Made by a program: the position numbers and the translations under genes
Part shown: piece after piece, positions 3,397-64,000 of the stretch
Layout: each line of letters starts with the position of its first letter
Position numbering within the stretch: the first letter of the stretch is position 1
Notes under the pieces: generated by a model
Told to the model about the DNA's origin: nothing
The model's database searches: none
What the model saw: the letters and a program-made list of their open reading frames with translations, nothing else
Source of the DNA: Patellaria atrata CBS 101060
Lineage: Eukaryota > Ascomycota > Dothideomycetes > Patellariales > Patellariaceae
Assembly (NCBI GenBank): GCA_010093705.1
Contig: MU006094.1
Location: 1,029,550 to 1,093,549, forward strand
Direction: 5' to 3'
Length of the DNA stretch: 64,000 nucleotides

Positions 3397-7626
<4,230 letters not shown>

Positions 7627-35050: not shown

Positions 35051-35931
35051 GAGCCCCTCGAGGTAAATGTTCTGGAGAGGGTCTATTGAGAGAAAGAGCA
35101 CGGTAAATCTTCTATGTAGATGTCTAGGGGCTGTGACGAAAAGTCCCGTACGATCGGATCGACCTAATTTTCAACCTCGAGCCACGGCCATTCATCAAAT
35201 TCAATACCCTGTCGGACCAACAGAATAACCTGCAGTCTCAGAAAGATTACTGACCACGCTCCGTATAATCGTTGTCAAGAGAATGACGGTTCTTATACGG
35301 GGGTTTGCCTTCTAGGTACGGACCAAAGGAGAACTTTTATTGTATTTGTACAATGTAGAGCAGCAATGAAGAATTGATGGCGACTGAATTAGCGTCTGAT
35401 ATCGAAACCTATGTGTTCAACTAGGTGTTGGTACATTGTAATATCTTCCTGTGAAGGGAAGGGAGGATTGCAGTTTGGGATGATCTTTCATCAGCAGTCC
35501 TAGGATATACAAAGCTAACTTAGACGTCGAATCTAAACTTCAAGCTCGTTAATGTTGCCCCCTTTCCATCCACTAACTGAAGTCTGCCACAGGCAGCCAG
35601 ATATCAGTAAATCACATGTCCAAGACCTGACATCACCTGCGCATATCTCTTTACAACTTTCTTCACAACTTTTATTCCCCTTCCCACTTGTATCGTCCAC
35701 AATGTTTTTCTCGACGCATGTTTATGATAATCCTCCGCAGGTATATAAACCCATCTCCCGCATCCTAAGTTTTCGAATTTCACTCCTCAACATCAGGGAC
35801 ACTATAGATCCCAGCACCTCACATCATACCATATCTCCATATCTCCATAACTCTGTTCGCCCAGCGGAAATCACCACCCCGTACCATAAAAAAAATCTAC
35901 ACCATACTCAAACCCCGTCTAAACAACAACA
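35051..35931. other. Spacer upstream of the tail-anchored-like gene
   Basis: From about 35540 the plus strand is CT- and CA-rich, as expected for a promoter and leader of the next gene. A 229-codon open frame beginning at 35552 overlaps that gene in another frame, is rich in Pro, Ser, Thr and His, and is judged a shadow. Confidence 0.5.
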
Positions 35932-44100: not shown

Positions 44101-44414
44101 TACTCCCCACCATCACCCTAAACTTCCCACCCTCCAAATCCTTTATATCTCCCCTATCCCGAAGCGCCAGGAATATCATAGGTGAGCTAGTGAATGGGGA
44201 AGCGACCACAATCATCTGGTCCAACTCTGGCAGCGCCCGAATAAGGTAGAGTTATTATTGAGGATACCGGCCCCACCCCGAAATAGCGGAGAAGCTTCTT
44301 TTGAAGCTCCGACGGTGGAAAATTGCATTTTGCTGTCTTTGTCCCACTTCTGCATTGAAGTGCAATGTTGCTGGTTCTGAGTTAGGTCTAAGGGGGAGGG
44401 AGGGGAGGGGAGGG

Positions 44415-44423
44415 TTTATATAT
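44415..44423 (-). promoter_or_regulatory. TATA-like element resembling the 46-50 kb array motif
   Basis: On the plus strand GGTTCTGAGTTAGG precedes a purine run and then GGGTTTATATATCCCC. This is the same order as the array units further right, and it may be an outlying unit. Confidence 0.45.
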
Positions 44424-44594
44424 CCCCGCCAATTGCCTTCGTCATCCCCGTCGCTATTCACTTTGCACGTGATGGGGGTGGGGATATCATGAGATAGATC
44501 TGTCTCTCGATCTGTGAGTATGGTAGTCTGATCCCCATTCCCTATGCACGTGGTAGGTGGTGGGGATGTCATGGGGTTATAGCCTATCTCATGT

Positions 44595-44618: not shown

Positions 44619-45367
44619 TACTCCTATCTCATTGGCGTCGTATAACTTCTCGGATAGTGTAGTGTGCTACCGGATACTGATAATGCTAAGTATTTATAAT
44701 AGCAATGATGATTGTGATCGTGCTGATCATCGCCACAAACTCCCTGTCACGGGTTAAGTGGCTTGGATGATCCAGTGGCTTAGTCATACTGTACTTTAGC
44801 AGAACAGCATATGCTGTCTCAACACTTTCTTTCCTTAAGTTTGAGCTTCAGGTACATATAGCAATATACCTTTCAGCTTCCATCTGAGGTTGAGCCATAA
44901 CACTCCCCACCTGTATCGAGTTGTCTCTTCTCGTTTCTCGTACTCAGAAGGAAGGAATATGGTATGAGAATTGAGATAAGAGACTTGACAATAGTTGTAG
45001 TGTTTGCTTTCGTATCTGGACCGAGGTCTCCTCTATAATATAATCTTTTCGATGCGGTGGACAAGGACAATACCGCGCCGTCTTATTTAGTGTTTTGGCC
45101 TGGGGTGGATGGTTGTTGAGTGGAGGTGGAGAGTATGGGGAGGGAAGGTATAACAGGCTAGAGCCTAGTGGTATGGGTTGCCCTACATCCGAAGATCAGT
45201 CAGTAATATTTCCCTCAAACCTACCCTCAGACTCTTCTCTTCTTCTTCATATTGATTGTAGATAGCATCTGGACTAGATAGTTGGAACACAATTACTAGA
45301 GGCCGCTCACAGAAGGGGGTTATGTTTTTGATACTGGCTGCAGGTTAGGGGTGATGTCATGCTTAAG
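44619..45367. other. Spacer left of the 45-kb minisatellite
   Basis: No gene seen. Confidence 0.5.
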
Positions 45368-45683
45368 CACAAGACAACCATAACACAAGACAGTTACAGC
45401 ACAAGACAGTTATAGCACAAGACAGTTGTAGCACAAGACAGTTGTAGCACAAGACAGTTGTAGCACAAGAGAAGTAGAACACAAGATGTCCGTAATACAA
45501 TCCAACGAGAGCATAAGGCGTCCGTAACACAAGACAGCTATACCAAAACACCTCCTTACCACAAGGCCCCTTAACACAAGACAGTCATAGCACAGCATCT
45601 CCTCACCACAACATCTCCTTACCATGAAACCCCTTCTTACAATACAGCTATACCACAAGACAGTCTTAATACAAGAACGTCAT
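45368..45683 (+). repeat. 16-bp minisatellite, about 20 units with gradient of decay
   Basis: Units of the form CACAAGACAGTTGTAG. The three central-left copies (about 45416-45463) are essentially identical. Outer copies drift (CACAAGATGTCCGTAA, CACAACATCTCCTTAC), and the register slips by 1-2 bases in a few units near the right end. Minus-strand open frames through it simply translate the repeat. Confidence 0.95.
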
Positions 45684-46229
45684 ATCCCGATAGACCTATA
45701 TCGTGAAATCCAAGCGTACAATCCAAAGGGAAAATATCAGTGATGCTCACCATCCCCAACAAGCAACAACACTCCTCATCACCTTCATTCCTATTTCCCA
45801 TCCTCAGTATTCCTTGTTCTCATCTATCCCGCCTCATCCATCGCCTCCCCTCACCTCCCCCCTCAACCCTCTACTATCCGAACAGCACAGCCCCCATCAG
45901 ATCCACGATCCCGAGACCACAATCAACCGATAAACTTAGCGCTTTCAGCCCACCCAGCGAAAAGGGGGGTGCGTGATGATGCTCTCTTTCAACAACTGTT
46001 AGTGGAGGAGTGGTGGGGATCATCGCCTCCCCTAGAGCACCTGGACAATCACACTTGACACTTCCATTTCCTCTCCTACAAGAGAATAATAAATCAAAGA
46101 TGTTCCGGGCAGAGCACCACAATGGACGCCTGTGATGATCTTGGACAAATGTCGGAAGTATTTCATACAGTAACCGCAATGATACTCCTACATGCAAAGC
46201 TTCAATTCGTGCTCGAATGCGAAGGGGAT
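45684..46229. other. Spacer between the minisatellite and the TATA-repeat array
   Basis: The plus strand is C-rich at about 45790-45900. No supported gene. Confidence 0.45.
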
Positions 46230-47032
46230 GATGGGTTTGAGTTGAGTCGAGAGCTGAGAAGGGGGTTATTCATTTAAGGTAGTAGACTAGAAGCTTCCTA
46301 GGGGGGTGGGAACGGGTCAGGAGGTCACTGTATGCATGTTTTTAACGGTCATAAGGGCTCAGGGGGGACTCTGGGAAGGGGAAAGGGTCGTATGTTAGTA
46401 ATGCTGATCATCAGCTAAGGTCATACCGGTCGCCGTTATGGGTTATATATCAAATCAGGGGATTCTTTCTTGTGTTGGAGTTGGAAAACTAACGTAGGTC
46501 AAAGACATGCGCCCCAGAGACCACAGTGCGTGAACCTGATGAATATTTCAGCCGGGAAATAGGTTCGTTCTGCTTCTCTGATCCTAATCAGCTGCTTGCG
46601 TTTGTTCTTCTCGCAATTGAAGTGGATGGCTAGTTTCGAGCTTTGAGTTAAAGGAAGGAGGTTATATACTCATACTCCATCCTTCTTCGAGTCATAAGGC
46701 TACCTGTGGCATGTGATACTGTACAATCGCCGACGGAAAACCGGAAAAGGGGTAATATATTGGTGCGGCCCAGCACCTACGAAAGATGATGGTAGTGATC
46801 ATCATCCTCCATGAATATTCGCACTTCTGTCTTCTTCCTTACAGTACCGAGAAAAGGCATGGACGATACGGGGTCCCCGAGACGACAATGCGTTGCGTGT
46901 ATGTTTTTTGGAGCAACGAACCATCAAGATCTGAACTCCTCAAGCGGTCCAAATCCAAATTAATCGGACTTGTTGCAACATCACTTGGGTATTGAGAGAT
47001 TTTGGTTCTCAGTTCGAAGTGGAAGAGAAGGG

Positions 47033-47040
47033 TTTATATA
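47033..47040 (-). promoter_or_regulatory. Minus-strand TATA-like element of an array unit
   Basis: GGGTATATAAACCC on the minus strand, followed by CTTCTCTTCCACTTC. It is one of the best-preserved units. Confidence 0.5.
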
Positions 47041-47802
47041 CCCCTAAGCTCCCCTTAACTTCCGAATTTGGGGACAATTATGATAGAGTGACGTCACGAC
47101 GTGAGAGCGAATATACACCTGTGATACTCACCATCTACTAAAGATAATGAGGATATTATTTTTCCTTCTCAAACACTCCATCCTCTAGGTTCGCTTCTAA
47201 CTTCCTAAGCCTCCCAATGAGAGTAATGATATTGAATTGGAGCGGCGCTCCAGAGAGCGGAGTGGCTTGTTCTCAGCATCCTCAAAGAAATCCGTCAACG
47301 CTTTTGGTTTTCCAACCCTGAACCGTATTCAGTGAAGTCTTTGTATCTTGCTTATCATGGAGTAAGAAGCAGTAATGTTAGTTTCTCAGTTGAGAGTCAA
47401 AAGGCAAGGGGTTTATACCTAAGTTTTGGACGTCCCTTAGCACTGATGTCATGAAGAGATCATTACACATGATTCAGGGGTATTTTAAAGGGGTAAAAAA
47501 AGGGGGTAAAGGGAACAGACCGTTAGAGTATGGGTGAGATATTGAAGATGCTCAATGTCTGTCGGAGGTAAATATGATGATTATCATCACTCCATTTATT
47601 TAGTTTCCATCTTCGTCCAGGAACAAATCTAATACTTTCCCTCAGGATTTGTTGGTCGAGAGCTCATAAGAGAGTTGATTGGTTTTGGCGTCCGAATCTC
47701 AAACAATAGATTTGATCTTGTATCTCAGGATTCGTGAACTTCACTTCATACACGGAATAGAATACTGGTTTCTGAGTTGGAAGCGGAAGACCGGAGGAAG
47801 GA

Positions 47803-47810
47803 TTTATATA
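47803..47810 (-). promoter_or_regulatory. Minus-strand TATA-like element of an array unit
   Basis: GGTATATAAATCC on the minus strand, preceded by ACGGAAGGGGAAGTTGA and followed by a CT-rich stretch. Confidence 0.5.
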
Positions 47811-48347
47811 CCTCAACTTCCCCTTCCGTTGGCATCACGGTCATATCGGGATATTTCGAACACATAAGACGCGATCCCACAACCAATCCAATGAAACGGT
47901 AGTTGTGCAGGCAATACCAACGCACCAAGCAAGCCCTGGGGGATGTTGTTTCTAAGGTGAACGCCTTACAAAGATGACTTGATATACCCGACATCTCTCT
48001 TCTATTCAATATCACGAGATACTACAGCATGTCGGGCGATAACGATAGGAAAGGGGAACATGCGGCGATGCTGCGCATTTACCTCCAACAGAGACGGTGA
48101 TTACCATCGTTTCAGACTTCTACTTTCAGAATCGCTGCATACCCAAAGCCTCTAACATGGTCTCTCGGAGTGCTTATCTCATCCCATTTCCCACCAATAA
48201 TAACAGGAACGGGGTGAAAGCAGAACGTCAGAATGGCTCTGTAATGTGGAACCAATTCTTCATCGCGACGTTATCTGCGACTTCTTCTTCCCTTTAGATT
48301 GTAATAGAGGATAGGTCTGGGTTTGTTTGAGGTTTAAGGGAAAAGGG

Positions 48348-48356
48348 TTTATATAT
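48348..48356 (-). promoter_or_regulatory. Minus-strand TATA-like element of an array unit
   Basis: GGATATATAAACCC on the minus strand, preceded by GATGAAGGGGGAATG and followed by CTTTTCCC. It matches the units at 47033 and 47803 on both sides. Confidence 0.5.
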
Positions 48357-50290
48357 CCAACATTCCCCCTTCATCGGCATAACTGGACCATTTACGGCAC
48401 GAGGTCTATGAATGCGCAACAGAACCGTGAGAACTGCTAAATCCCAACATCTATTGAAAACGGAGTTAACAGTTATCATCATCCTAGACTTCTCAGTGTC
48501 GCGACCATTTTCATATCCAGAACGCCCATTCAGTCTCCAAGTGCTTATCCCGCCCTTCACACCCAATAGGGTTAGACGTATGATCGTATGAGAAATGGCC
48601 TAGCGTAACAGACTCTTCAAGTGCAGCCAGAATGATCGAGATAGAACTCTAGCATTTGCTCTCGGTATGTTGGAGTAGAAGATGGATTTCTGAATTTGAG
48701 ATTAGGGGAGAAGGGTTCATATATTGATGACCTATGCGGTATTATGCATGGCATCACGAGATATACAGCATATTGATCTATGCCTCGGAATGCGGTAGAA
48801 AGGGGTTTCTCAATGTGGTGATGGTGAGTATCCGCCATTAGAGATTACGGTTGTTATGATTTCCAACTGATCGCTATCAAACCTTTCTTGCATTCACAAG
48901 TCCATAAGACCCCTTATAACGTAAGGATTCATAGGTCGAGCGACCACAATAACCAATACCCTGATACGGGTTCAGACACACGCCGCACACCAGAATACTA
49001 GATGATGATTTTTTTTAAATCCTATCCGTAATCTTTACGTTCCAAGAACATCTTCTCACGGCCGAGGTTGAGGTGGATGCTTTATATTAAACGGAGAAGC
49101 TGTGAGAGAACAGTTTATATATTCAGATCCATTTTCCCCGTAGGTCACGAATTATATGATGTACCCCATGTGGTTAACCCCTGAGCGTCCAGCAGTCACA
49201 TGATCGTTATTCCTTCTATCTTGCAGCTATAACAGAGATCTCCTTCTAAGGTTGAACATTTCCCATCTACTCAATTCACGAACCTTCAGCAGGGTTAAAA
49301 GGTAGAACACCAACAAGGCCCCTCTTATTTCGCGATTCTTAACTTCGATTTGGGTGGAACAGAAAAAAGGGATTAGCTTATTCGGCCGACTTGACCCAAC
49401 CAACATTGGCTTCTTTGAAATCTATGGATAGATGTTCCATAAACTATCCCAATGACCGGGGAGTACCACTACCACCTGAAGATAATCAACGCCATCACTA
49501 TAATCCCACAAATACGCAGTCAGGGAAAACATTTTTATTCTGAAATTCAACTGAGAGAAATTCCCAACGGTGAATGTTCCATAAATTCTTCATGTAGTGC
49601 CAAACAGCCAATTAAGGAAAGGTGCTTGAGCATGACCAATTGACTGGCTCGAGTATAGGTTAACCTCTCTCACAAGGTCGAAACAACTTGAAATGAAGTT
49701 GGAAGGAAGCTAAGGGATGAAGCTATATACCCTATCCTTACCGCAGTTGACCGCCTCATGCACCCACCCTTTCCCGTCATAAGATCCCAACCCAGACTGC
49801 CAGAGTGCAAGTGATACAGTTGGACTTCTATTTAAGTAGTTCTTCCTTCTGATATTCAATTCATTCGAAGTTCTATCCACCACTTTGCTCTACTTGGGAT
49901 TTCCGATAACGGATACGTTTCGCCTATTGGAGACCTTAAACGGCGCTGAGCTGATGACAGAGAGACACATGCATAGTACAGCAACGCAGTAGTATAGACT
50001 CAAGGTAGCTATCATCATCTTCCACTGAGTATTCTATCCGGCGACTCATATTGCCTGGCTAAACTTGGAACCTCAAGTGTGTAGGATATTGGCTCCACGC
50101 CTCACAATCTCGTCATTTCATGGTTCCGATTTTCCTACATATGATTTCCAAAAAAAAAAACGAATTGATCGCTTGTCAGATGCTTCCAATCTCATCTGAG
50201 TCTTGTTGGTTTCCCAGTTCTAGAGGAAAACCAAAAAAAGAAAAAAAAAAAAAAAGTGAAGAGGTGGTTATCTATACCCCTACCAAGCCC

Positions 50291-53200
50291 CTTACAAGCT
50301 GTCTAACGAGCGCAGAACATCAAGTGATATCCATCCCACGGCGCTGTACGCTTATACGTCATGGAGGTAATGACGACTAAGTTATCTAGGTCAGCTGGAT
50401 GGAAACTTTGGTAATAAAACCCTCTTCCATTAACCTTTAGCTCTGTTTAACTGCAACTGGAATGCTTCGTGAATTGCGTACAGCCGCCGAGAGATCAATT
50501 CCGAGCTCTTAACCCAACAACTATATCAATTGGGAGGAAGGTTCTGCTCTGTCTAACTTAGACGTGTTGGTTTTATGGCAGAACCTCTCCCTAGTCTTCC
50601 AGAAAAGGGGATGGTGACCATCTACTCTTGGTAGGATTGAGTGCGCTCACCACGGATTGACGGTGATCTCCCCTAGTACTCAAGCGAAACGCTTATGAAT
50701 TAAGTTTGGTACGAATGATAAAGGGTGAAATCAAAGTCGCTCTAACCCGGATATTATATTCATAAATCACTGCAAGCAACAACGAGCCCACAATGTGGCA
50801 TGTACAATGACGATTAACAAAGCACCCCCGGAGACTGTTCGATATGTAGTTGCAGCAGTCGTCGTAGAGGAGAAAGAGGAGGGATTTAAGTAAACCAAAA
50901 TCCTGCTCACAAACTACCTGCTCACCCATAGGAACTGACCTCGCTCCTATGACGTGCTCAAGCGATCATCTTCTGCCTAAATCTTATCATACGCATCTTC
51001 AAGCGTAGTAGTAGATAGTATTTAAGACCTTTCAACCGGAGACCACTTCATCTGTTCAACAACAAAGCACTCGGGAAAGATTGCATATCTGATAGGTTCT
51101 ATGGAAAATTTGGCCGGTTGGAACCGTAGAATAACCAGGAAAGAAGATTGTTCTCCGCGGGTGTCCAGAAAACACCTTCATTTGGAGAGGGTTTACCGTT
51201 TATCGTGACCATAGAACATGTGATAGAAGTTCAATCGAGGATTGATGATCAAAAAGACCAGCGAGTATTGATGGTCAACAGTACCAGCTTGGAGTGATGA
51301 TAACTTCCACGCTTCCGTCTTTTTAGACCTTATGGTCTAGAGTGATACGCCAGACCTGCACGGACCTGCCTGGCCATCTTATGAGAAATATTGGAGCCTC
51401 CAGAGCATCAGAATGGAGTACCATTTCAATCAAGCATCTGGCAGGTTTATTCATATCCTCCAAGAGCAACAACGAACGAATAACTGTTCTCCTAGATAGA
51501 TATTACTTCCCATCTTGGAAGTAAGTCCACTGGAGAAGAAAAGGACAGCAAAGAACAAGAGAACGGTGGGTTTTTACCCCTATCCGCAATTTTGAATAGA
51601 CTACGCGCCCTGTACCCCCCCAGTAGGACTCATTCACCGGTCATACATTTCATGGGCAATTCCCGGAAACGTCAAGAGTCACGTTTGCGTCCGTAGACTC
51701 CCGCAACGAGAATATAAGTCAAACTTCTTCCTCTTCCTCTCTTCCAAATCAAGTCCAAGTCCCTCCTTTTAAGTTCAACTCCCAGTAATCACTCTTCCGT
51801 TCCCCCGTTGCGTAATTGGTCAATGTCCGCTATTTCCTTTGTCGGCTATCCTATTCAAATTTCCTTACCAGTCTATGTTCGAATCCTATCAACACCAAAC
51901 TTCTACGCGGCGGCGAAACCCTTTTTCTTTTTTTCTTTTTCCTCTAAGATTTTATTATTTTTAAGTATTTTTATTTTTTGATAAGGGGAGAGCCGGATTT
52001 CATGAGATGTTGTTAGTTAGGGTTAGGTCTTTTGTATAGTGGCGTGTTCTATGAACACTCCCTTTTCCTTTTTATACTCTATATATTCCTGTACAATAAA
52101 TCCCCGCTACCATGGGTATCGGAAGATAATTATCACACGCAAGGGATGTAGGACGGTTTGTTCGACCCCCCTGCTCGAGTACAGTACAATTGCACGGTAC
52201 GTTCCACCAGGAGTGGGATAAGTGAGGTATGTGATATGGATGGACAAGATATTAATCCCCTTACCGCCTTAGACGAATCCGAAGATACGTCACCTTCTGC
52301 ATATCTAAGCGTTTCTCAACTGTACTGCTGTAGCGACTGAGATTTTGTTACAGCTCTTAGTTGTGGAGCGCGGAGATGAGATCCGCGTAATCGAGATATT
52401 GGATCATGGTATTCTCTTGTGTAAGAATGCGTCTTTTCCTTGATTTGGAGAGACTTGTTCATCTCTTCTATTTCCCAAGTCTTGGGAAAATTGTTGATGC
52501 TGATAGCTGATATTATCGAACGCTGGAGATGGTGACTATCTTTTGCCGCAATTGATTAGCGGAAACGTTATGAGATAGCCAAGGCTAATATCATTGAGAT
52601 AAATGGGTCGAGGCGCAAGGATCCTTTTGGCCTTACAAGGAGCTATTGACACTAAAAAAGAAACGCGAATCTGATAGTTTCTAGTTGCCTAATAGCGCTC
52701 TTTCCGAGATGGAATTAGACCGGATCGGAAATTGTCTTCTCAAGATGGACTTTCAAAGTCTAATGTGAGGAGATCTTATAGCTCTAGATATCCCTGAGCA
52801 CAACCCGCTACCACACTCAAAAGTCATTTGACATCGCCAGTCCCTTAGGGACTCGCTGCTCACCTACAACCATGCATTAGTATCATCATAACCTTAGCCA
52901 GGGGGTATAAAGCCCCTCCGTCTACAGCATCAATCCCATTACAGAAAGCCAGAAACGTTTCAGTAGTCCGGCCTTCGTACGTGTTCACAACCATGGATGT
53001 GACGCTGACTCACTGTGCCGTTCTACCCAGATGGAGAAAATGACTAAAATAGGGCAGTGTCTTTCACTTATTGCTTTTTTTGGTGTGGAGCGGAGCCCGA
53101 AGTACATGAATTAGGGAGGGCAGTTGAAGGAGTGTGACTGGGTTTTTGTTCGTGGACTGGATATTTTTCTGTTATGCGCTGGTGGGTATGAAAGACCTTA

Positions 53201-59810: not shown

Positions 59811-62800
59811 GGATGAGCCTTGAAAGCTCTCCCGGACTGGCTAAGCACACGAGCAATCCGACACGATATCCGTTACCTTGGGCCAACGCGCACTAATAAT
59901 TACCGTGAGTTGACTTTTAGGTTGTTATTAAGGTAACGTATTCAACGTGATTGATCGTCTCTTTGTGTACCTCCATGGGATAGATTCTCCTTAGTCCATA
60001 CTCCATAGTTCTACGTCGCCGACTATGTTATCATGTAACTCCCATTTTGGTAAAATCGTCGCTTTACCTCATCCATACAATATGATATGCGCTTCCCAAA
60101 ACGGCTTTACCATTGTTATTGCTTGCGACAACGAACGAAAAGAGAGTATTGATTTGACCTTTTCTGGTCTACCCAGTGCCACGGTCTGTTTCGCGTACCG
60201 ATCCTCAAGCCTCGTGCAAAATGGTCTAACAAGTGGCGGGATCGGTTAGAGGACTTCTCATCTCCACCGTCGCAGACTGACGTCCAACGTGCCGGATCGC
60301 TATCTCATCCAAGTTTATTCCCACTGTGACCTGAGACTGCGCAGCCAATCCAAAAATATTCATATTATTTGACACTGCGCTTTTAAGAGAAATAATAGAT
60401 CTTACTTATAATATGCAATACATGCCTGCTGGAGTGGGGCATGCTCCTGCAGAGCGGACGAGTCTTGACGAAAACTTGAAATGTCCGAAACAGAACAGTG
60501 ATGCGATGCCTCATAAATGCAAATTTTACCGCCGATTTCATCATTGTACTGGATTGAGAGTACTGTGCTGTATGTATGTACAACTTATTGAAGGGCCTTA
60601 ACTGCTCAACGCCTCTCAACAACTAGATAGTGCAGCTAATATGGATTGGTCTAGTCAATGACATTGAAAGCAAATGGAAGTGTACAGTACTGCCCTTGAC
60701 CCATCCGCGGGGGAGATATGCTCTAGCCCATCTCATAGGCTGACGAATGCAGCATGATCTGCAAAGGAAATAACCCTTTTTGTTCTCCGCAAAACTGTAT
60801 GTATGGTAACTTGGCTGTAACTTGCTGTAACTTTGGGAGACCTCTAGACGGCTCGGTTACATGACACAGGAAAAAGCCGTAATGATTCCCTTGATCGAAG
60901 AGCGTCAGCGCGTGGGGCACCAGTATCAGGTGGAGCTCTTCGCGCGTTGATGATCGACCCGCCATAGGACAGGCTAGTTTGTTGCGCAAAGAGTTCGACT
61001 TAAGGGGCTTAAAGTTATACGTGTAGGAGCAAATCTATCTGGACATCTACGGATTGGCTTCATACCGAAACCCTCTTAGCGGACTGGCGACGCAACGAAC
61101 TACGTACCACTAAGCGTTAAGTTCTGGGACGGAGAAAATCCCAGATTGGTGAATTTGTCGTTTCCCGCGCTTGCCTATTAGTTAGTGTCAGAAAGAAAGG
61201 TGTTGTCCAAATATATACCACCTACTATCGTGGTATCATCGCATGGTGGGTGTTAAATTAGGAGGCGAGTAAGGGAACCCTAAGACAACCTGTAGATCGA
61301 CCAGTTCATCATCGTTATATGATCATCCACCCCTCTCCCTTCGTTTCTTCGACGAGTCATAGGCTCAAGATGGTCTGGGAGTTATGAGCTGTACTGTTAG
61401 TGCGATTCTTTGGTCAGCCGCGGCCCTGAGGATCCGATGGCAAAGGTGTGTGGTGTCACTGGTGTGTGAGATGTGAATGGACTGCTAGAGCTAGACAGCG
61501 AGAGGAGTAGAGAGACTAGAAAGTAAGCCCGATACCTAAACCACACCCAATTTCAAGCCATGCGGATCATCAACGCCGCCAGAGCCATGTCCATCGGAGG
61601 ATTCGCTTGTGATTTCTACGCTATCAAAGTTGAGAATGATTACTGGCCCCTCCCTACATTCGTGTACATACACACCGTCGTTTGCGAGCTTACTAAAATA
61701 GACGGTGGTGTATGTGTTTGCCCTATCTTCAAAAATGCTGTCGACTTGACGGATCAAAATCTGCTACCAGTACAATCTTGTGCTATGGTTTGCGGTGTCA
61801 CTGAAGCTGACCTCGACGAGTGCTTTCTCCACATCGGTCTAAGAATTGTGAGAATGACAAAGGAGGCGTAGGCAGGGGTGCTTAAAGGATGCCTCCACCG
61901 TTTGTTATGACCCTCGTCGTACTTCTCCTGTACTGTACCTGGTCATTTTCATCAAGTGGATGTGCTCTTTTCTCACGCCTCTTACTTCTGCGGCCCCCCT
62001 TTGACTTTGTGCGTCCAAAAAATCCCACGAGGTCCGGGATCGAGTGCCTTTATTTCACATCAGCCCTGCGGACATAAGCTGCGGCCAAGGATAAAGAAAT
62101 CACACGAACGGGGACTTCGATATTGCTATATTGTAACTCTACGACACCACCGAGTAACAGGTAGCTTTAAAGTTATCTCAGCACTTTAAAAATTGCCAGC
62201 TTCTTCTGCGCCGTCGATCGATCTTGATAGATATTCCCGCAAAGTGCGAATCTCACCGTCACACAGATCTCTTCAATAGTGTACAGATAGCTCCCCGAGC
62301 CCCGTCCTTTACGTTCTTTTTTTATTTTTTCCTAATTCACCTTTTTCAGTTTCATTATCAAGGAGGGCCGGTGCCACCTTGCGCTCTTTTGGTGCGATTA
62401 TCGAATCGTGGTGCAGTTACTTTGCCGAGATCGGGGAAGTGCTATTTCTCACTAAAAGGCTTCCTACGCTTTAGAAAAAAAAGCAAAAGCAAAGGTCCAA
62501 AAACAGTATTGGAGCAAGGCCGTGACGCCTCACGGTCTATCATTGTTGCTGTTGTGCACTTGTGTGCCTCTCTAACCGAGGAATTTAACCGTCACACTGG
62601 ACTCGTGAGAGTCTCGTGGGGCCCGTGGGAAAGTCTCCCTTTCTTCACCCCGGTTGGATCTGCAGCGCATCATTGCCCCGTCCACCCTTACCCTGTAACG
62701 CCTCATTCCTCGAACGGTTGGATAGCCGGCGCTGTATAGATTGACAGGACCAGGCATCTTTGGCGGATCTCCGTCCCTGCTCCCTTGCCCGACCACGCCG

Positions 62801-63298
62801 ACTACTCAAGATAGACAAGACTCCTAGCAAAGAGTAAAACCGTTCAAGGGCCGCTCAAGGGCGCATATGACCAACTTCTCCCTTTACAGTAACATCTGCA
62901 CTGCCGTTGAGGGGACAAGTGTGGGCACGGCTCCTCCCAGATAATAACGGTTCGCTTCCTCCAAACGTCGACCCATCACCGCCGCCCAGGCCATCGTTGT
63001 CTGATCCGTGCTACTGGTGACGGCGACGTCTAACTCCCTGATCTTTACCTTTCACAGATCGTATACCTACAGTACTTGTACAAGAACACTCCTGCGGGCC
63101 CAAGCCTCTTTTCTCGCTTCTTAATAGCCTCCTCTTGTTTGGCCTCAAGTCCTGTTCGTTAACCTCAGCTATCATTCCTTCAACTGCTTTCGCTAGCCGT
63201 TGTTGTAACTTGAACTTTTCTATCTCTGCCTTCTTGTTGCAGAGTGGGCTTGTTGCTCGAGTATTGCTTTTGGTTAACGTTGCTGTTCTCTATGAGAT
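59811..63298. other. Gene-poor stretch and promoter/leader of the right-edge gene
   Basis: No supported gene. Open frames at 61560-61871 and 62224-62739 lack family features. From about 62720 the plus strand becomes C/T-rich and is probably the promoter and long leader of the next gene. Confidence 0.5.
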
Positions 63299-64000
63299 AT
63301 GCATTTGTCGAGTATGGTACAGAACGGGAGGGATGAACGTCGTGAGGCGCACGATCCCATTCACCAACGACAACTTCATTATTATTCTCAAACTCAAAAC
63401 AAACCGCTTCATTCGCAACACGACATCGTTTCTGCACTTGCTTCGAATCAGTTTGCATCCCAACAGCAGTTGGAATATTCATACCACCAGCGCACCCCTC
63501 AGTCCCCTCCTTCGCCACCCGTAGAAGAGGTTAACAAGCCCTCACTACCTTCGATTTCGAGTCTGCTCGGAATAGCGGATGGTGACCGAGCGAACGGTGA
63601 GAGTGGTATGTAGACGAGAGTATATTCTCGAGAAACTTTTATTAACATCTGTTAGGGCAAAATCAACAACAACACTCTGCAGTGTCACAAAACGTGGTAG
63701 CGGCTGGACAGACACAGGAAACTCGACCTGATCAAACTCCTCAATCTTTTGGCCACACGATCGTGAGCAACCCCAGAATGACTTTACCGCCAACTCCTCC
63801 TATGCAGCCGGATTCCGTCGTTGACGGCAATCAGTCTCCTTCCGCCACCTCGCAGTCGTCAATATCTGCGGCTCCTTATTATCTCGGTTCCTCTCTCAAC
63901 AACATGGAACCACACCAGCAGCGCCAAAATGTACCGACCGTATCAGATACCAAGCGACACCATTCAATGACCATTCATTCGGGTGTTTCTCCTTATAGTA
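63299..64000 (+). CDS. N-terminal part of a probable transcription regulator, continues beyond the window
   Basis: Exon 1 runs from ATG 63299 (a second in-frame ATG is at 63314) to 63605. A 50-nt intron with a GTATGT donor and GTTAG acceptor follows, then an exon from 63656 that is still open at the window end. The protein is Gln/Ser/Pro/His-rich. It has a short conserved-looking block (KPSLPSISSLLGIADGD) and another (MTLPPTPPMQPDSVVDGNQ, SPSATSQSSISAAPYYL). Such blocks are typical of the disordered activation regions of fungal zinc-finger regulators. No DNA-binding domain lies inside the window, so the class is not determined; C2H2 is a guess. The joined frame stays open for 115 codons across exon 2, which supports the splice. 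Confidence 0.75.

Follow-up and report, generated by a model that had tools for sequence, protein, structure and literature searches.

Promoters in rDNA spacers are served by RNA polymerase I, and in the roadblock termination of yeast a transcript is ended by a DNA-bound factor (Reb1 and similar) that sits between it and the next promoter. In the upstream region of fbp1 in fission yeast, several noncoding RNA polymerase II (Pol II) starts face one direction and initiation opens the chromatin over ~290 bp, according to the passages on this cascade in PMC6342983; the mlon-box, the initiation element of the fbp1-type cascade, has a published consensus (PMC7935937). Subrepeats with duplicated core promoters, which enhance rDNA transcription, are described for the rDNA intergenic spacers of Drosophila and others (PMC1215480).

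Here we describe an array of promoter-like units in a 64,000-nucleotide stretch of the Patellaria atrata genome, the whole of which is called the window. Like the fbp1 mlonRNAs as portrayed in those passages, the array would have serial starts in one direction, and an opening of ~290 bp would span its core-to-box distance. In contrast, fbp1 has three lncRNAs, whereas transcripts of the array are predicted, and neither tandem duplication nor a repeated downstream palindrome is described for fbp1 in the cascade passages of PMC6342983. The Atf1/CRE site TGACGTCA (at most one mismatch) is not enriched: its 6 hits all fall at 44-48 kb, none at 48-52 kb, versus 5.0 in shuffles of those 8 kb. The proposed factor on a box between a transcript and the next promoter would resemble a Reb1 roadblock, the palindromic box presumably differing in sequence from Reb1-type sites. 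With the rDNA spacer promoters described in PMC1215480 the array shares repeats bearing duplicated core promoters; unlike them, its units are strongly diverged, its cores are of Pol II type, and it does not lie between rRNA genes, the window holding no match to rRNA or any other Rfam family at gathering score.

Results

The core profile recognises ten cores with a TATA box and CT-rich start region in the window, all on the minus strand: the outlying one at 44375-44439 and the nine of the array between 46616 and 50298 (E 3.6e-13 to 3.7e-7 for the ten), the profile having been built from those same ten sequences. Its next match lies on the plus strand at 35740 (18.3 bits), and the remainder have E-values of 0.35 or worse. 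The array cores are located at 46616-46688 (unit 1, TATA at 46663, 39.3 bits), 46995-47058 (unit 2, TATA at 47035, 38.7 bits), 47365-47438 (unit 3, TATA at 47413, 26.0 bits), 47752-47831 (unit 4, TATA at 47805, 44.9 bits), 48298-48377 (unit 5, TATA at 48350, 36.9 bits), 48669-48742 (unit 6, TATA at 48720, 37.9 bits), 49066-49139 (unit 7, TATA at 49118, 30.9 bits), 49677-49747 (unit 8, TATA at 49724, 29.5 bits) and 50217-50298 (unit 9, TATA at 50272, 34.7 bits). The outlying core at 44.4 kb (32.7 bits) stands apart from the other nine on their downstream side, 2.25 kb to the left of the array, and is followed by a 47-codon ORF. A possible decayed core on the same strand (47971-48006; 8.5 bits, E 0.088) is found 369 bp from the next core and matches 48340-48375 at 21 of 36 positions.

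An earlier note had described ten or more such units every 370-400 bp, repeating one order of elements and read on the minus strand as a TATA box with a CT-rich start region. The array is real and the start regions are borne out, but the stretch in question holds nine strong cores. Their spacings are 372, 378, 392, 545, 370, 398, 606 and 548 bp, i.e., 370-398 bp in five of the eight intervals and 545-606 bp in the other three, and the TTTCTGAGTTSGAAG element of the repeated order is recognisable (at most three mismatches) in three units only. The box 223-292 bp left of every array core, the tenth core at 44.4 kb and the like arrays elsewhere in the genome go beyond that note.

A sensitive self-alignment, one of two tests that the earlier note had set for the array, gives a clear off-diagonal signal: gap-free self-matches over 46.2-50.3 kb reach 68 at a lag of ~375 (z 20) and 45 at ~775 (z 13) relative to dinucleotide shuffles. 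In seven further segments of 4.1 kb from the window no value above 11 occurs at lags 360-400, although two of them peak at other lags (34 at 768 and 27 at 111). In the second test the regularity exceeds that of shuffled sequence, with 19 matching stretches at lags 340-414 versus 4.2 +/- 2.4 in 20 shuffles (maximum 10); for nine of the 19, both copies fall outside the cores (0.120 per lag versus 0.043 at lags 420-699). The lag of ~375 and the matches outside the cores support an old tandem duplication of a ~370-bp segment, as one of the earlier readings had it. No excess of gap-free matches extends the array into 50-60 kb (63 versus 63-71 in shuffles). Tandem Repeats Finder, with no period above 48 bp in the window, and a gap-free repeat search were too insensitive for these units and gave nothing but short pieces: four copies of the core and two or three copies of box fragments.

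Strong similarity in pairwise alignments of the units is confined to the core. This core similarity is partly a matter of ascertainment because the units were chosen by their cores; the similarity of the box is unaffected. Leave-one-out profiles score above shuffles for the upstream piece, where the neighbour's box lies, in three of nine units; for the downstream piece, which ended at 195 bp, short of the box, they do so in none of the nine. The bodies between core and box are nearly unrecognisable between units, with weak similarity within the window (z 4.0), and the upstream arms are similar as well (z 4.0 and 5.8 within arrays, 2.4 between arrays). A GAGACCACAATG-like island lies left of core 1 at 46517-46528 (at most two mismatches), and others, all likewise on the plus strand, at 44202, 45913, 46879, 48940 and 50784; at this tolerance 44-52 kb holds 6 sites where shuffles hold 1.0; the remainder of the window has 3, and 50 kb taken from outside it has 5.

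A palindromic box, GATGRTNAYCATC-like or of the GATGATNATCATC type, is present 223-292 bp downstream of the TATA, on the predicted transcribed side, at all nine array cores. It is exact in unit 4 (47576-47588, 223 bp from the TATA) and has one mismatch in unit 5 (48096-48108, 248 bp), two in units 1 (46400-46412, 257 bp), 2 (46788-46800, 241 bp), 3 (47123-47135, 284 bp), 7 (48820-48832, 292 bp) and 8 (49478-49490, 240 bp), and three in units 6 (48468-48480, 246 bp) and 9 (50004-50016, 262 bp). The mean minimum mismatch over these cores is 1.89, versus 4.39 +/- 0.26 in 300 shuffles and 4.23 over 366 shifted placements, none of which is as low, the box tests leaving out the 44.4-kb core. De novo motif search in the nine window units alone returns GGATGATGATCACT (z 6.4), placed at +216 to +282 in seven of them. 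With an SD of ~21 bp, the box spacing may be within what neutral indels would permit.

Boxes also occur apart from the listed cores. An exact one at 50610-50622 may belong to a decayed unit with a core near 50887, whose score at the distance predicted from the box is matched by 1.7% of background windows; a weaker candidate pairs the box at 46012-46024 with a core near 46269 (10.5% of background windows score as high). Among the 17 boxes at 40-63 kb lacking a listed core, only that at 50610 points to a core under the 5% threshold. Box-like sites are enriched at 52-60 kb as well, a region without strong minus-strand cores, and the genome holds 2553 sites per strand with at most two mismatches versus 1121 for the backward control. 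Hairpin formation in RNA at the box hardly exceeds chance in the window (z 2.0) and does not do so elsewhere (z 0.5); the box as an RNA hairpin feature is thus unsupported outside the window.

The nine units share no reading frame, as previously stated, which speaks against a tandem small-protein gene family. Their first-ATG ORFs have 2-28 codons and are no longer than in shuffles (mean 18). The 47-codon ORF (44212-44355, minus strand) begins at +62 after the 44.4-kb core; its peptide has no other match better than E 0.31 in the window and none elsewhere in the genome. Neither a shared Rfam family nor a tRNA nor a folded RNA was found among the units, and RNA structure over the array has a mean z near 0, with two of ten predicted transcribed parts below -2 (48350: -2.3; 50272: -3.8). 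A known ncRNA gene cluster, C/D snoRNA or other, was dismissed since no described RNA family reaches its gathering score; one sub-threshold C/D match falls outside the nine units at 45735-45786 (20.7 bits, cut-off 42, E 0.39).

The surrounding ~23 kb, from ~40.1 kb to near the right end of the window, contain no recognisable genes. Near that end lies a C2H2 transcription-factor gene (zf-C2H2, E 2e-7), from which the cores point away. The array is without any tRNA or Pfam match, the Pfam scan having taken 14 of the 60 listed ORFs of at least 75 codons at 40-64 kb and given two sub-cut-off matches. In a genome search the 4.2-kb array matches itself only and is thus unique in sequence; together with the result of Tandem Repeats Finder, this speaks against satellite DNA in the sense of many similar tandem units. 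A repeat decayed by RIP was rejected because the dinucleotide indices are unshifted in the array (TA/AT 0.76, (CA+TG)/(AC+GT) 1.17, both inside the span of values seen in the other parts of the window). A centromere was considered for the gene-poor stretch, but two candidate loci, the window array and L013/L065, share one contig ~95 kb apart.

A second array, L068, was found on contig C4 (C4:1423001-1433000), with 8 same-strand cores scoring at least 11 in 4.7 kb. Positions at this score number 9 in the 100 kb of strand covered by five arbitrary 10-kb pieces, and ~16 in the ~110 kb of strand that the window has outside 44-53 kb. Ten TATA positions were read by eye in L068, a further possible core (~5870) being omitted. 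Four further candidate loci show the core-plus-box architecture more weakly. L006, L007 (inside L068), L013 and L021 were reached via the TATA pattern, and L060, L062 and L065 via the exact box. Other loci with at least three same-strand cores scoring at least 9 were not counted as arrays. Of these, L012 and L023 carry cores on both strands and lack a long ORF, long ORFs are present in L019, L058 and L059, and L047 and L048 are 10-kb pieces; their cores scoring at least 11 were kept in the control set.

De novo search in 21 of the 22 non-window units (L060_1274, without a clear TATA, was dropped) returned GATGATAATCATCA (z 4.6), which is the box of the window, at +208 to +305 in 17 of them. 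Two samples of 21 from 55 control promoters, treated alike, gave nothing (z 0.8 and 0.0); the motif nulls had fewer starting points than the real sets, so that z is somewhat raised. For upstream motifs the units did not surpass one of the two control samples. The mean box mismatch is 3.14 in the 22 other-array units versus 4.28 at 64 control cores (p 2.6e-4), which, unlike the 55 motif-search controls, include some plus-strand cores of the array region. At most two mismatches occur in 6/22 units versus 4/64 controls and at most three in 13/22 versus 13/64, the fit being poor in part of the other arrays. Between the two arrays the core is similar (z 20), as is the box (z 4.4), and the body is not (z 0.2), these values being rough with six shuffles each; conservation was judged from copies within one genome. 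Across the genome a TATA-to-AACTSAGAA pattern has 22 matches, four of them in the window array, versus 23 for the backward control, and a TATA-to-box pattern has 8 rows (six distinct places, two in the window array) versus 3 control rows.

Discussion

We consider the chances about evenly balanced that the locus consists of short noncoding Pol II units that multiplied in tandem long ago and run leftward, promoter and downstream box being kept as the body drifts. The promoter-like sequence suggests that the units are transcribed. An array of short noncoding RNA genes was among the earlier readings and is the best supported of them, with core and box shared and the body hardly or not, on two contigs, although its basis is sequence. 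Because the copies share core and box without a recognisable gene, and a similar array occurs on another contig, the ~ten tandem promoter-like copies and their counterpart may represent a little-known kind of noncoding transcription array. More tentatively, we propose a dispersed genomic class of such arrays, composed of TATA-driven short Pol II units closed by one shared palindromic box ~250 bp past the TATA, with no shared product sequence, and acting as relay or insulation through transcription itself, not through the RNAs.

In such an array, selection would keep core and box because each unit is used to start transcription, and what matters would be the transcribing itself, not its product. 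With initiation ~50 bp past the TATA, start and box would be ~170-240 bp apart. The box could serve as terminator or insulator, a DNA-binding protein on it ending each short transcript ahead of the next promoter. Alternatively, it could be an activator site opened by transcription of the preceding unit, with initiation stepping along the array in the manner of the fission-yeast fbp1 lncRNA cascade. The array may control chromatin across the gene-poor ~23 kb next to the C2H2 gene, or it may feed the 44.4-kb core, which lies in the same direction.

The main rival, which we regard as rather unlikely, is a dead relic: an old tandem duplication of a segment with a promoter, or what was once a small-gene family or satellite, now functionless, in which cores and boxes stand out merely as the parts still recognisable. 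The strong divergence of the units, the decayed appearance of positions 47980 and 50887, the lack of a shared ORF, RNA family or structure, and surroundings without recognisable genes all fit this reading. Even decay, however, is not expected to leave two islands around a hardly recognisable stretch, and both islands recur at equal distance in units on other contigs when the window sequences are excluded. The decayed satellite suggested earlier may likewise have been the origin, but a satellite decaying evenly should not keep two islands and lose the middle.

Unlikely in our view, and overlapping with the preferred noncoding array, is a cis-regulatory array of the C2H2 gene or the 44.4-kb unit, in which repeated binding sites with promoters work like an enhancer and RNA is a by-product; the two differ in where function lies. 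Duplicated promoters in rDNA spacers work that way (PMC1215480), and the stretch that holds the array and lacks recognisable genes reaches from ~40.1 kb to the C2H2 gene, yet the array faces away from that gene. Tandem genes for tiny peptides, or their remains, with each core driving a short mRNA, are improbable: the 47-codon ORF after the 44.4-kb core is the one element in favour, but its peptide has no relative in the genome, and the array itself, with its short first-ATG ORFs and no common frame, lends no support to the peptide relics of the earlier note. That unrelated TATA promoters are evenly spaced by accident is scarcely credible, for although TATA plus CT-rich cores are present elsewhere in the genome, periodic similarity outside the cores and a box at one distance in nine of nine units contradict it at the sequence level.

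The copies separate the kept parts, core and box, from the freely drifting body. If the units are transcribed, their natural replication, about tenfold at one locus with similar units at others, would make them a test bed for asking whether noncoding initiation acts by position and timing rather than by RNA sequence, and they would point to a protein on the palindromic box.

Results

The gene-poor setting

The window corresponds to C6:1029550-1093549. About 23 kb of it (40100-63300) contain no recognisable gene, within a compact 28-Mb genome (28.3 Mb, 46 contigs). The genes of the window include a GH76 gene, a fused N-acetylglutamate kinase / semialdehyde dehydrogenase, an amino-acid permease and an SRF-type factor, a set that suggests an ascomycete fungus. 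The gene-poor stretch holds 60 ORFs of at least 75 codons; none of the 14 scanned against Pfam reached the cut-off, and two had matches below it. Across 40-58 kb, a single 2-kb bin at 44 kb apart, codon scores equal or come close to those of shuffled sequence, and at 50-60 kb the coding signal is slight and no gap-free repeats rise above chance. At the right end of the window lies a rightward C2H2 zinc-finger gene (63646 onwards; 195-983 of the fetched piece L047; zf-C2H2, E 2e-7), which we presume to resemble Aspergillus MtfA; an upstream exon at 63296-63613 is conjectural. A plus-strand stop-to-stop frame at 61527-61871 (114 codons, internal MRIINAARAM start, several cysteines) has no Pfam match and is possibly a small protein gene.

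An old tandem array

A core profile search returned ten minus-strand cores, each a TATA box with a CT-rich start region: one at 44375-44439 and nine spanning 46616-50298. As the profile was built from its own ten matches, it shows the extent of the array and is not an independent discovery. The consensus on the minus strand is GGGTATATAAACCC, a CT-rich run and then AACTCAGAAAC. Successive TATA boxes are 2246, 372, 378, 392, 545, 370, 398, 606 and 548 bp apart; the regular spacing of 370-400 bp described in the earlier note thus holds for the intervals of 372, 378, 392, 370 and 398 bp and fails for those of 545, 606 and 548 bp.

The old tandem duplication that the same note had considered is supported. 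Independently of core positions, lag analysis of 46.2-50.3 kb gave peaks at about 375 (68, z 20) and about 775 (z 13), with at most 11 at lags 360-400 in seven other window segments, and 19 matching stretches at lags 340-414 vs. 4.2 +/- 2.4 in shuffles. Nine of the lag-matched stretches fall outside the cores in each of the two copies, at a rate of 0.120 per lag for 340-414 vs. 0.043 for 420-699; among them are GAGACCACAATG-like and box stretches. A further match pairs a possible decayed TATA at 47980 with the core at 48350. Because of this periodicity and the matches outside the cores the array is, judged by its sequence, a genuine tandem duplication of old date whose copies have become barely recognisable. 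No DNA similar to its 4.2 kb occurs elsewhere in the genome, and its dinucleotide indices give no sign of RIP.

A 16-bp minisatellite (AGCACAAGACAGTTAT, 45366-45470, decaying to about 45700) separates the 44.4-kb core from the array. On the plus strand, promoter-like TATA / CT-rich sites occur at 52900-53000 and 51700-51760 (core scores of at least 11 near 52909 and 51718), neither followed by a long ORF.

A palindromic box downstream of each core

All nine cores of the array have a palindromic GATGRTNAYCATC-like box 223-292 bp to their left, which is downstream for the minus strand. These boxes carry 0-3 mismatches, with a mean of 1.89. None of 300 shuffled arrays (4.39 +/- 0.26) and none of 366 rigid displacements of the nine anchors through adjoining DNA (4.23) scored as low. 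Where the interval is long (three cases), the box keeps its distance to the right-hand core (248, 240 and 262 bp), and its distance to the left-hand strong core varies (about 290-370 bp); in one of the three the latter distance would be restored by the possible decayed core at 47980. The core-box spacing has an SD of about 21 bp, by rough estimate near what neutral indels might leave, and is in itself no proof of constraint.

Boxes with at most two mismatches number 10 in 45.7-50.7 kb vs. 20 in the remaining 59 kb of the window; before merging, 52-60 kb also shows an excess of sites (13), some of them within a GAT run at 53.2 kb. The case for further decayed units is weak, since of 17 merged boxes (at most two mismatches, 40-63 kb) lacking a listed core only one predicts a core below the 5% level (50887, 1.7%); four (50887, 52775, 46021 and 46269) score at or below 10.5%.

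Related arrays in the genome

Other loci, reached via one TATA pattern or an exact box, revealed more series of cores that share a strand and lack long ORFs. The clearest is a second array, L068 (C4:1423001-1433000), with 11 plus-strand cores scoring at least 9. Eight of these score at least 11 and fall within 4.7 kb, and interior ORFs of the array do not exceed 139 codons. Its ten TATA positions, picked by eye, are spaced 423, 380, 580, 672, 905, 458, 396, 841 and 966 bp. Weaker candidates, whose choice over L012 and L023 was a matter of judgement, lie at C4:1.298 Mb (L006; longest ORF 130 codons), C6:1.173 Mb (L013/L065; 119/138), C17:0.491 Mb (L021; 123) and C3:1.609 Mb (L060; 219).

The box search at 21 cores of five other loci gave 4.00 vs. 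4.48 +/- 0.19 in shuffles (0/100). Compared with 4.28 at 64 control cores drawn from this genome, the box score is 3.14 for 22 units of other arrays (p 2.6e-4) and 1.89 for the nine window units (p 4.6e-6). De novo motif search excluding the window units recovered GATGATAATCATCA (239.4 vs. 215.9 +/- 5.1; at +208 to +305 in 17/21), and from the window's nine units on their own GGATGATGATCACT (z 6.4; at +216 to +282 in 7/9); all 31 units together gave 370.8 vs. 297.5 +/- 6.0, and two samples of 21 from 55 control promoters yielded no motif (z 0.8 and 0.0). An upstream CRE-like motif found with all 31 units is not claimed, because it was not recovered from the other loci alone, and one of the two control samples scored about as high (3.4) as they did (z 3.7).

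A dispersed repeat of about 148 bp has a copy at 44755-44902; among 95 candidate places, the 40 that were scored show 89-95% identity, self excluded. Further copies lie inside array loci at C4:1427935 (L068) and C3:1608992 (L060). The copy at C4:1531134 has a TATA-to-box match some 2 kb away, at C4:1533348; the repeat may prefer such gene-poor stretches. An inverted pair (L068:4315-4487 and 4910-5082; 173 nt, 90% complementary) occurs in the second array, whose 580- and 672-bp intervals contain one copy each and shrink to about 407 and 499 bp on subtraction.

Conservation within the unit

With z values each derived from six shuffles, cores are similar within the window (z 18), within L068 (31) and between them (20), as are boxes (7.1, 9.5 and 4.4) and, to a smaller degree, upstream arms (4.0, 5.8 and 2.4). 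The body between core and box (+60 to +220) shows weak similarity among window units (4.0) and none within L068 (-1.1) or between arrays (0.2). First-ATG ORFs of the nine window units span 2-28 codons vs. a shuffled mean of 18; the 44.4-kb core alone has a longer one (47 codons, at +62), with no relative elsewhere in the genome. There is no tRNA and no Rfam match at gathering score (one below threshold, E 0.39), and folding predicted across the array does not differ from chance; of ten presumably transcribed parts, two fall below z -2. As the body is not conserved, the comparison suggests that the RNA sequence of the units does not matter.

Discussion

Two arrays share duplication, core, box and core-box distance, and four further loci show them more weakly. 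In open-licence literature on tandem promoter and noncoding arrays, mostly fungal, titles and abstract openings describe no such array, and titles matching the box letters concern unrelated subjects only. As far as the excerpted sources go, serial noncoding promoters (fbp1) and duplicated promoters (in rDNA spacers; PMC1215480) are already known in principle.

We infer that the cores start transcripts and that selection maintains both core and box. It is possible that the array is a dead relic without present function, as the copies all come from one genome; such decay does not readily account for the recurrence of both islands, equally spaced, on other contigs. Initiation about 50 bp past the TATA box would place the box some 170-240 bp past the start, ahead of the promoter of the next unit. 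Two presumed roles of the box are both compatible with this layout. A protein bound to it could end the transcript there and shield the next promoter; alternatively, the next unit could use the box as its activator site, which transcription arriving there would open. At fission-yeast fbp1, noncoding initiation opens chromatin across about 290 bp according to the excerpted report (PMC6342983), and the likeness to that relay of noncoding initiation (PMC6342983, PMC7935937; both in excerpt) applies only under the activator-site role, which would turn the array into a comparable relay.
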